DNA of 38,285 nt from Bacteroidota bacterium (GTDB lineage Bacteria > Bacteroidota > Bacteroidia > Flavobacteriales_D > JABDKJ01): positions 1-38,285 of the forward strand of contig JAJRRH010000197.1 of assembly GCA_024279715.1 (NCBI GenBank). The letters are read 5' to 3'. Shown here in pieces: positions 29,462 to 38,144 of this stretch. The position numbers and the translations under genes are program-made. Numbering within the stretch: position 1 is the first letter of the stretch; each line of letters starts with the position of its first letter. The notes below the pieces were generated by a model. That model was given only the letters and a program-made list of their open reading frames with translations. It did no database searches and was not told where the DNA came from.

Positions 29462-30292
29462 ATGTACGCAATAGTAGAAATAGCAGGGCTTCAGTACAAA
29501 GTACAAAAAGATCAGCAACTCTATGTTCATCGTATCGATGCTAAAGAAGGTGACAAAGTCCAATTTGACAATGTTATGCTTATCGACGATGGAGGTAAAG
29601 TAAGTGTTGGCGCCCCAGTTATAGACGGAGCAGCAGTGTCTGCCAAAATCGTCAAACATCTTAAAGGCGATAAAGTAATCGTGTTTAAGAAAAAAAGAAG
29701 AAAAGGATACAAGAAGAAAAATGGTCATCGTCAAGCGTTGACTTCTCTTGAGATCGATAAAATTATCACCACTGGTGCCAAAAGGGTAACTCCTAAAAAA
29801 GAGGCAGCGCCTAAAAAGGTGGCTCCAAAAGCAGCAGCACCAAAGGTGGAAGCTAAGAAAGTAGCACCAAAAGCAGCAGCACCAAAGGTAGAAGCTAAGA
29901 AAGAAGCGCCAAAAACTGTTGCCCCAAAGGTAGAAGCTAAGAAAGAAGCACCAAAAACTGTTGCCCCAAAGGTAGAAGCTAAGAAAGAAGCACCTAAAAC
30001 AGCAGCGCCCAAGGCGGAGCCAAAGAAAGCAGCAGCAACAAAGTCTTCGAAAGATGATTTGAAGAAAGTAGAAGGTATCGGTCCAAAAATCGAAGAAACC
30101 TTAAATGCAGCTGGAATTAATACATTTGCGGAATTGGCAAAAACATCTTCAGAAAAAATCTCTGAGATAATTACTGATGTAAGAGGGAAACATGTTACGG
30201 ATACATGGCCAAAACAAGCACAAATGGCTCACGATGGAGAGTGGGATGCATTGAAAAAATGGCAAGACGAACTTGACGGAGGAAAAGAATAA
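29462..30292 (+). CDS. rplU: Large ribosomal subunit protein bL21 with Lys/Ala repeats and a C-terminal HhH domain
   Basis: The N-terminal 100 residues are ordinary bL21 (MYAIVEIAGLQYKVQKDQQL, then VIVFKKKRRKGYKKKNGHRQ, the rRNA-binding part). A normal bL21 would stop near here, but the protein goes on to 276 residues. Residues about 108-195 are a Lys/Ala/Pro/Glu-rich tail with a 14-residue repeat, A/TxAPKVEAKKxAPK, repeated over four times. Residues about 198-245 form a helix-hairpin-helix module (LKKVEGIGPKIEETLNAAGI, TFAELA), and the end (WPKQAQMAHDGEWDALKKWQ) is conserved with such modules. Tails of this kind occur in several Bacteroidota bL21 proteins; their role is not known to me. rpmA follows by 25 bases. 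Confidence 0.95.
   Translation: MYAIVEIAGLQYKVQKDQQLYVHRIDAKEGDKVQFDNVMLIDDGGKVSVGAPVIDGAAVSAKIVKHLKGDKVIVFKKKRRKGYKKKNGHRQALTSLEIDKIITTGAKRVTPKKEAAPKKVAPKAAAPKVEAKKVAPKAAAPKVEAKKEAPKTVAPKVEAKKEAPKTVAPKVEAKKEAPKTAAPKAEPKKAAATKSSKDDLKKVEGIGPKIEETLNAAGINTFAELAKTSSEKISEIITDVRGKHVTDTWPKQAQMAHDGEWDALKKWQDELDGGKE
29831..30028 (+). repeat. 42-bp tandem repeat inside rplU
   Basis: About 4.7 copies of a 42-base unit that encodes the 14-residue A/TxAPKVEAKKxAPK motif. Copies 3 and 4 are nearly identical at DNA level, so copy number may vary between strains without changing the frame (42 is divisible by 3). Confidence 0.8.
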
Positions 30293-35775: not shown

Positions 35776-36301
35776 ATGAAAAGCTTAAGACAAGACAAGA
35801 CAAGACAAGACAAGATATATAGTTAAAGTTATATGTGTATTTATGTTGCTTTTTTATAACTCGAATAGTGCGAAAGGGCAATCTGAATGGAGTTGTCAAG
35901 TTGAAAATAATAACACATTTTTATCCTCAACACCTGATGATGCTATTCCGCCGTGTACAACGGAAACAGCTCTATATACTACTGATGAGTTTACTTTTGA
36001 TAAAACAATAAAGATAAACATACACTATGTTCAGAAAAGTTTAGTAGAGCCATTTAACTTTACTGAAACAGATGATGGAAATGGTAATACAGATGTTAAT
36101 GGAGGTGATATGGCGCAACAAATAGTAGATTATTGTAATAATATGTCAAACTCTAATTCCCAAATGAATATGTTGCCTGGCAATTCTACTCAAATTCTTG
36201 ATAGAAAATATCATTTTGTTCTTAATGAGGTATATTATTGGCAAGATGAAATACAATATCTTTTTAATAACACTTCTTTTGGTTACATCAATAATTGGTA
36301 A
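35776..36301 (+). pseudogene. N-terminal part of a secreted protein, out of frame at a pentanucleotide repeat
   Basis: ATG 35776 reads MKSLRQDKTRQDKIYS and then stops (35824-35826). The frame that really looks coding is shifted by one base. It runs open from 35789 through TRYIVKVICVFMLLFYNS, a signal-peptide core, then SAKGQSEWSCQVENN and a domain with IKINIHYVQKSLVEPFNF and NEVYYWQDEIQYLF. This resembles the N-terminus of secreted M43-like or related proteins, but that is only a hint. Its only in-frame start is ATG 35843, which would cut the signal peptide in half. Adding one AAGAC unit (or losing two) would join ATG 35776 to this frame. The coding frame ends at 36301, inside the next ORF. 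See findings. Confidence 0.6.
35787..35815 (+). repeat. Pentanucleotide microsatellite (AAGAC)5.8
   Basis: Five full AAGAC units (35787-35811) plus AAGA, nine bases after the A of an ATG. Each unit changes the reading frame by two. Tracts like this are classic slipped-strand mispairing sites. Confidence 0.9.
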
Positions 36302-38144
36302 AAGTGTGAAAAAATTTATCTCAGAAATAAAAAACTCAAATTTTGAAACATGCTGGAGAGGAGTGTATATTGCTTCACAATACAATCCTGAAATATGGCT
36401 CAATGACTTTGAAGTGACCCCTTATGATAACGCAACGCCAGGTGTGAATAATTGGCCCGTGGGCATCTATCTAGGGGATAATGTCAAAGGATATATTGTT
36501 GAGGAGAATAGTTTCTTTCCTATTGAGAATAGTACAGAGTTGTTAGATGGTACTGCCATTGGTATTGTAGCAAATACAGACCATGGTGAGACGGAGAGGA
36601 TTTACAAAAATTCATTCAAGCACCTTACTGTAGCATTTGAATCTATTGGTGAAAATAGGTACGATCAGTTTCAAACTCATAATGGATTACGAATCACTTG
36701 CAACGATTTTGAGATGAATAGAGCTGATATTTATATGACCCAAGGGAGTTTTAATACTGATTATGCAGGAATTGCTTTTGATCAGGGGTTTGCCCCAAAT
36801 GACCTTGCCTTCAATACTTTTACGGCAAGTAATTTCTTTAATATCGATAATGAAGTAGATTATATAAACTACAGATATAAAGCTGGTGACCCGTCACATT
36901 TTCCATTACAGGTGTTTGACTTGGATGTTAATGTTAATTTGGATGCAGTTAATCCAAGTCAAATAGGTAGCTGTGGGAGTAATATTGATCTTGACGAATC
37001 AAATGAACGCAATACCCGAACAGCAGCAATAACCAATAAAGAGGAAAAAGAATATCAGATGGCACAGGTTCTTGATGGTGGAGATACTCAAAGTTTGCAA
37101 ACCAATGTGGCTGCTACTAGTAACACAACGGTATGGACAAATTATTTGGAATTGATGTCCAAGGCTGGGTATATTACTGAAGAAGTACTCAAGGAGCTCA
37201 TTAATAATGAGTCAGGATTTACCAAAGCCATGACTCGGGATGTGCTGGTTGCCAACCCACATGCTGCCAAATCAAAAGAAATATCGACTACTCTGGACGA
37301 ACGAGCAGATCCTCTTCCTGATTATATGCGTGAGCAAATAAAATTAGGATTGACGCAAATGTCGGCTAAGGAATTTCTACAAGCTCAGAAAGATCGTTAT
37401 AAGATGAAGGAAGATATCGCTACTAGAAATATACAACACCTGCTTTTAAGAGAAGAAATGAATGTTGAAAATCAACAAGAACTAGTAGAGTTATTGTCAA
37501 ATACTGGGGATATAGAAAATGACTATAAGCTAGTGGAACTGTATGATGCTTTCGGACAGCAATATCTAGGTGATGCGTTGTTAGAATCCATGCAGGTCAT
37601 GTATGAATTGAAATCCAATGATGAGGAAGAGCTAGAACGATATATTAGTTATAGACAAATGATGGATAACTGGCAGCTAGAAGGTAAAGATTTCACTAAC
37701 TTAAATGAACCAGATATTGTAGCTCTCGAGAACTACACCGAGGTTAGAGATAGAGTGGCTTCAGAGGCAAAGGGCTTGTTAATAATGAATGATGAAATGG
37801 TGGACGTAGCACCTGTCTATTTACCCGACTTCAATAAAACGTTCAACGTATTCAAACCTAAGATGGAAGAGTTCAGGGAGGATAATGGTCAGCTAGAGGT
37901 GTTTCCTAATCCTGCAGAGGACTACTTCACCATAAAGTATAGAATTGATAAAGCGTTTAATAAAGGTGAGATTCGGATTGTTGATGTTAATGGGAAAGAG
38001 GTGTTCAGTAGGGCAATTTTCAATGAAGAAGATCAAGTCATCATCGATGCAATGAGGAATGCTAATTTCACATCAGGTACGTATATATGTGAAATAAGAA
38101 TTGATGGCAAAACCTACTCTGTCGAAAACATCACGATTAAATAG
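36246..38144 (+). CDS. T9SS-secreted protein, beta-helix-like remnant with type A sorting tail
   Basis: From ATG 36246 the product has 632 residues; the frame is open from 36198, which would add 16. The N-terminus MKYNIFLITLLLVTSIIGKS could pass for a signal peptide. However, it is read from DNA that also codes, in another frame, for the previous protein. From about residue 27 the sequence (NSNFETCWRGVYIASQYNP, then VGIYLGDNVKGYIVEENSF) looks like inside rungs of a right-handed beta-helix. The middle (about 270-545) is Glu/Asp/Met-rich and mostly helical. The last 80 residues form a T9SS type A sorting domain: LEVFPNPAEDYFTIKY, IRIVDVNGKEVF, SGTYICEIRIDGK. The natural N-terminus is probably missing. 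The next gene starts 7 bases later. Confidence 0.7.
   Translation: MKYNIFLITLLLVTSIIGKSVKKFISEIKNSNFETCWRGVYIASQYNPEIWLNDFEVTPYDNATPGVNNWPVGIYLGDNVKGYIVEENSFFPIENSTELLDGTAIGIVANTDHGETERIYKNSFKHLTVAFESIGENRYDQFQTHNGLRITCNDFEMNRADIYMTQGSFNTDYAGIAFDQGFAPNDLAFNTFTASNFFNIDNEVDYINYRYKAGDPSHFPLQVFDLDVNVNLDAVNPSQIGSCGSNIDLDESNERNTRTAAITNKEEKEYQMAQVLDGGDTQSLQTNVAATSNTTVWTNYLELMSKAGYITEEVLKELINNESGFTKAMTRDVLVANPHAAKSKEISTTLDERADPLPDYMREQIKLGLTQMSAKEFLQAQKDRYKMKEDIATRNIQHLLLREEMNVENQQELVELLSNTGDIENDYKLVELYDAFGQQYLGDALLESMQVMYELKSNDEEELERYISYRQMMDNWQLEGKDFTNLNEPDIVALENYTEVRDRVASEAKGLLIMNDEMVDVAPVYLPDFNKTFNVFKPKMEEFREDNGQLEVFPNPAEDYFTIKYRIDKAFNKGEIRIVDVNGKEVFSRAIFNEEDQVIIDAMRNANFTSGTYICEIRIDGKTYSVENITIK

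Follow-up and report, generated by a model that had tools for sequence, protein, structure and literature searches.

An AAGAC tract as a probable switch in a multi-locus, Opa-like repeat-slippage phasome of T9SS-secreted surface proteins

In Bacteroidota, the best-known form of phase variation is DNA inversion. The Opa proteins of Neisseria are outer-membrane barrels of a betaproteobacterium, and the Opa repeat encodes the hydrophobic core of the signal sequence. Opa provides the model for switching by slippage, in which a change in the number of repeat units shifts the reading frame so that the protein is either made or not (PMC13183285). A non-triplet repeat that toggles a secreted surface protein ON and OFF is also described for the Haemophilus influenzae autotransporter lav, where the tract is GCAA(n) (PMC9022572). 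For Bacteroides, a review mentions inversion-type systems (PMC11868660). No report of repeat-slippage phase variation for T9SS or for Bacteroidota was found in the open-access literature searched, which is not proof of absence. The AAGAC tract described here in all likelihood belongs to an Opa-like phasome in which repeat slippage at multiple loci switches T9SS-secreted surface proteins.

The window analysed is the whole of contig C26, a stretch of 38,285 nucleotides from a 2.36-Mb, 207-contig MAG that is 72% complete. A sequence-only reading of this DNA had noticed an AAGAC repeat lying 11 nt after an ATG at 35776 that opens a 16-codon ORF, and TRF bears this out (Table 1). As assembled, the ATG gives MKSLRQDKTRQDKIYS before a stop codon is reached. 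The earliest start codon within the signal-peptide frame IVKVICVFMLLFYNSNSAKGQ is the ATG at 35843, which falls within the hydrophobic core. The OFF phase ascribed to the present assembly is correct, as the signal-peptide frame is out of phase at five full units, and so is the arithmetic of the proposed switch: in-silico addition of one unit or removal of two joins ATG 35776 to the signal-peptide frame and yields 176 or 171 aa, with ON states at 3, 6 or 9 units.

Table 1. Repeat tracts and neighbouring features in the window (C26) and at the loci compared with it
Locus	Feature	Position	Strand	Basis or state
C26	Upstream region common to C26 and the second AAGAC locus (C206); last ~90 bp also in C195	35306..35786	+	blastn
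C26	ATG start codon	35776..35778	+	11 nt from repeat, as at all three AAGAC loci
C26	(AAGAC)5.8 tract, encodes RQDKT; probable switch element	35787-35815	+	TRF, 100% match
C26	Signal peptide IVKVICVFMLLFYNSNSAKGQ	35819..35881	+	Out of frame with ATG 35776 as assembled
C26	ORF1, first open frame after repeat, 160 aa	35819..36301	+	Stop TAA 36299-36301; no confident Pfam family
C26	ORF2, C-terminal part of T9SS surface-protein family, other frame than ORF1	36318..38144 (open frame 36198-38144)	+	48% identical to C-terminal part of C206 protein
C26	T9SS type A sorting domain (Por_Secre_tail)	37899..38126	+	PF18962 E=1.7e-9, TIGR04183 E=1.2e-8
C26	Start of second gene, signal peptide (MKCLLIILSILSTNMVGAQ), cut by contig end	38152..38285	+	Sequence; T9SS partner genes hold this place at C206, C137, C53, C100
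C195	AAGAC-led gene with lamin-tail domain and T9SS tail			OFF as assembled
C206	AAGAC-led gene, 1836-codon open frame, sortilin/VPS10-like part and T9SS tail			OFF as assembled
C53	(AAAC)9			OFF; 950-codon product two units away
C137	(GCACAATC)5.6			OFF; 924-codon product one unit away
C90	(AAGTACAA)4.25			ON as assembled; 906 aa read straight through tract
C139	(AAACACC)3.7			Second frame break behind signal peptide
G729 (L325)	(CAAA)6 directly after ATGAA, before lipoprotein signal peptide	1506-1529	minus	Assembled out of frame; 4 or 7 units give 353-357 aa

The sequence AAGACAAGACAAGAC occurs at exactly three places in the genome, namely C26, C195 and C206 (15-mer search; the reversed control pattern gave 0). 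Each of these loci reads ATG, 8 nt, tract, basic stretch and hydrophobic signal peptide, and each gene has a T9SS tail, that of C26 in another frame. The tracts hold 5, 7 and 7 full units at C26, C195 and C206 respectively and all three are OFF as assembled, with ON states at 0 mod 3 units though the downstream genes differ. The DNA upstream of the C26 tract is 88.5% identical to that of C206 over 513 bp and 84% identical to that of C195 over 93 bp, and both blastn alignments reach into the tract. C26 and C206 are 88% identical upstream and yet hold 5 and 7 full units respectively, so tract length has changed since duplication. The length difference between related copies that marks SSR phase variation is seen here between paralogues only.

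Tracts of other units lead further genes of the same kind. The genome holds about 92 T9SS-tail genes, and the 5' ends of nearly all were surveyed for perfect tracts with a unit of 4-12 nt and at least 3 copies. At least seven T9SS genes carry a tract between start codon and signal peptide; the search suggested by the sequence-only reading, for more repeat-led signal-peptide genes, returned two further AAGAC loci and four with other units. The latter four (C53, C137, C90 and C139) are related to the window family as paralogues. Unit lengths across the seven are 4, 5, 7 and 8 nt, none a multiple of 3, and at every locus the tract has the form expected of an SSR switch, being perfect, tandem, non-triplet and inside 5' coding sequence. 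Changes of unit number convert between a long ORF and an early stop at C195, C206, C137, C90 and C53; they give only 171-176 aa at C26 and 33 aa at C139. The same five genes encode, in their ON frame, a Sec signal peptide and a Por_Secre_tail on one polypeptide, as T9SS type A cargo should, while in the C26 gene the two lie in different frames. That a frame can be restored is weak evidence alone because any stop-free tract opens at some unit count, and the proportion of ON loci (one of seven) is not different from the 1 in 3 given by chance. At four OFF loci, cargo of about 1830, 447, 924 and 950 codons is one or two unit changes away, the last two sizes belonging to C137 and C53. Because the cargo frame stays open over these 447-1830 codons, the OFF state looks reversible rather than a product of decay.

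A T9SS partner gene directly follows at C206, C137 and C53, the three loci taken into the partner-gene alignment, and apparently also at the window end (38152). On contig C100 (L194, minus strand, ~1570) a poly-G(11) splits a T9SS partner gene into frames of 231 and 300 codons. One more G would join both frames. This may be a switch of the homopolymer type, again within this gene family.

The tracts are concentrated at T9SS gene starts. None of at least 3.5 copies was found in 327 kb of own-genome DNA away from T9SS genes, where the longest reach 3.0-3.25 copies, and a 3-Mb order-4 Markov simulation (unit 4-12) produced four tracts of at least 3.5 copies and none of at least 4. If placement were random, the probability that the T9SS 5' ends (94 kb) would receive all seven tracts and the 327 kb control none would be about 3e-5, an approximate value as some loci were reached via pattern and paralogue searches. 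Homopolymers and di- and trinucleotide tracts show no strong overall excess. Poly-G/C tracts of at least 9 number two in the own-genome sets, both in the T9SS set and none in the control.

These observations fit a mechanism in which a non-triplet tract within the coding sequence of each gene separates the start codon from the hydrophobic core of the signal peptide. At replication, slipped-strand mispairing would alter the unit count and shift the frame, and translation from the upstream ATG would then either enter the signal-peptide and cargo frame (ON) or end some 10-25 codons later (OFF). When ON, the tract would encode RQDKT, QTNK or similar polar residues, a possible extended n-region of the signal peptide. 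Early termination upstream might also lower expression of the partner T9SS gene. Tract length is expected to change at high frequency in living cells, and secretion and surface display would depend on it, such that the set of large surface proteins, which probably resemble adhesins or enzymes, would vary at random from cell to cell. Phage, grazers, a host or surface attachment may supply the selective reason. To the extent that sequence can tell, the earlier proposal of slipped-strand switching rather than inversion in a member of the Bacteroidota is right.

The further claim, that the repeat controls the frame of a secreted protein, is strongly supported across the genome by seven T9SS genes with 4-, 5-, 7- and 8-nt units in the same position, together with a 10-nt case in another family. 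It is weaker at C26 itself. A second frame break near 36300, which the sequence-only reading did not see, parts the signal peptide from the T9SS tail, and because it cuts off the C-terminal region as well as the tail, the ON state of C26 is only a secreted fragment of 171-176 aa. No confident family and no close relative were found for the ORF1 protein. Its N-terminal 160 aa show no similarity to the C206 protein, whose C-terminus is 48% identical to ORF2, and the C26 gene therefore has the look of a remnant left by deletion or fusion, or else of a misassembly. The switch itself is present at C26, but what follows it is probably a remnant gene or one derived by deletion.

A stronger form of this reading takes the C26 locus, independently of what happens at the others, as a decayed pseudogene only and its repeat as a passive leftover. 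We regard this as somewhat the better bet for C26 given the frame break, the N-terminus that is not homologous to that of C206, and the similar broken arrangement on C100. However, the C26 tract is perfect, its 5' region is conserved with C206, and the signal peptide and first frame are still open, while the break itself may be a misassembly of repeated family members. Furthermore, ATG 36249 in the ORF2 frame starts a signal-peptide-like stretch (MKYNIFLITLLLVTSIIG, 36249-36310) that overlaps the end of ORF1 in another frame, from which the C-terminal part could be exported separately.

Two other repeats were observed in the window. An intergenic stretch at 35186-35472 matches DNA at one end of contig C206 with ~92% identity, and an overlapping part recurs at the opposite end of C206; it resembles a dispersed intergenic repeat that interrupts the assembly. 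At 29825-30038, 42-bp coding repeats (4.5 copies) form part of a 276-aa protein rich in Lys, Ala and Pro (29462-30292), where length but not frame would vary because the unit is triplet.

It is improbable that the tracts belong to 5' untranslated regions, with real starts downstream and repeats that tune translation or are neutral. Downstream in-frame starts do exist (ATG 35843, which opens an ORF at 35843-36301, a GTG at C195 and an ATG in C206), but these lie within or right at the hydrophobic core, so that hardly any basic n-region, or none, would remain. At C90, the frame from the ATG ahead of the tract runs through it to give 906 aa, and the ATG-to-tract spacing of 11 nt recurs at C26, C195, C206 and C139 and in the 10-nt case of genome G027. 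Unit counts could represent an assembly consensus because the MAG is 72% complete and in 207 contigs. About equally improbable is that they are assembly or sequencing errors in genes constitutively in frame, as a draft MAG, error-prone repeats and six of seven loci out of frame might suggest, since the tracts (26-45 bp) are shorter than ordinary reads, perfect non-triplet tracts of at least 3.5 copies are confined to T9SS 5' ends, and even with every count wrong seven unusual tracts in 5' coding sequence remain.

Outside the source genome, the comparison with relatives that had been proposed for the C26 tract found no orthologous tract to compare, with an AAGAC tract after a start codon in 0 of 398 other genomes of the order (399 sampled including the source). 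The three nearest relatives, the same-family genomes G001-G003, have no tract above 3.25 copies in 298 kb of T9SS-rich contigs. The tracts of the source genome are thus lineage-specific. In G027, which belongs to another family, a homologous gene with a 1904-codon frame begins right at the edge of a contig, where (CAGCAACACT)9.1 precedes a signal peptide, and the end of a second contig consists of ATGACAACACT and 8.7 copies of this 10-nt unit. We infer that the two edges are two sides of one CAGCAACACT tract, with the assembly breaking inside it; the reconstructed order is ATG, 8 nt, repeat and signal peptide. Other genes N-terminally homologous to the G027 gene have a normal signal peptide directly after the start without a tract, and the G027 tract therefore looks like an addition. 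A search of 395 genomes of the class found three more CAAA tracts after an ATG, including that of G729. Given the G027 case and these CAAA tracts, the design recurs sporadically.

On balance, we lean towards a wider reading in which Bacteroidota switch T9SS cargo, often in two-gene cassettes, by multi-locus slippage of coding repeats whose unit differs at almost every locus. Such a mechanism would recur in several families of the class and represent Opa-like bet-hedging unrecognised in the phylum.

The AAGAC motif is also found elsewhere. A scan of the genome collection with TTAAGACAAGACAAGACAAG matched 10 stretches, all from unrelated bacteria and set aside, as were two unrelated viral contigs with the repeat. 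In Pilibacter termitis (L025, 1097-1151), (AAGAC)11 follows MVQL and precedes a hydrophobic segment of a 299-codon open frame, apparently an independent instance of AAGAC at a membrane-protein start in a Firmicute. In one genome of Candidatus Endomicrobiellum siamense (L021, L027-L030), long AAGAC tracts of up to 19 units stand on several contigs, in a context that hardly varies (GGAGTT...TAAAAAGGTGTACC) and in some cases at contig ends; they look like a dispersed repeat family.

If correct, a slippage-driven repertoire of T9SS cargo would represent Opa-like surface variation for environmental Bacteroidota. It would explain T9SS genes annotated as truncated, as lacking a signal peptide or as broken across contigs, and it predicts tract-length polymorphism at T9SS gene starts that can be checked in existing metagenome reads. 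The closest likeness is to Neisseria Opa, where a pentanucleotide (CTCTT) tract in the 5' end encoding the signal sequence similarly sets the reading frame and many unlinked family members are each switched independently. Membership of the Opa family was considered and rejected, as the unit is AAGAC rather than CTCTT and scans of Pfam and NCBIfam match the cargo to a T9SS tail and not to Opa; no homology is claimed. Unlike in Opa, the residues encoded by the repeat here make up a hydrophilic n-region ahead of the core, the unit varies between loci (4, 5, 7 and 8 nt) and the cargo is T9SS-secreted. The tetranucleotide contingency loci of Haemophilus influenzae differ in phylum, in secretion route and in their unrelated proteins. 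The invertible promoters of Bacteroides share with the tracts both the phylum and stochastic surface variation, but they act transcriptionally through recombinase-mediated DNA inversion, whereas the switch proposed here would be translational and act by slippage within coding sequence.
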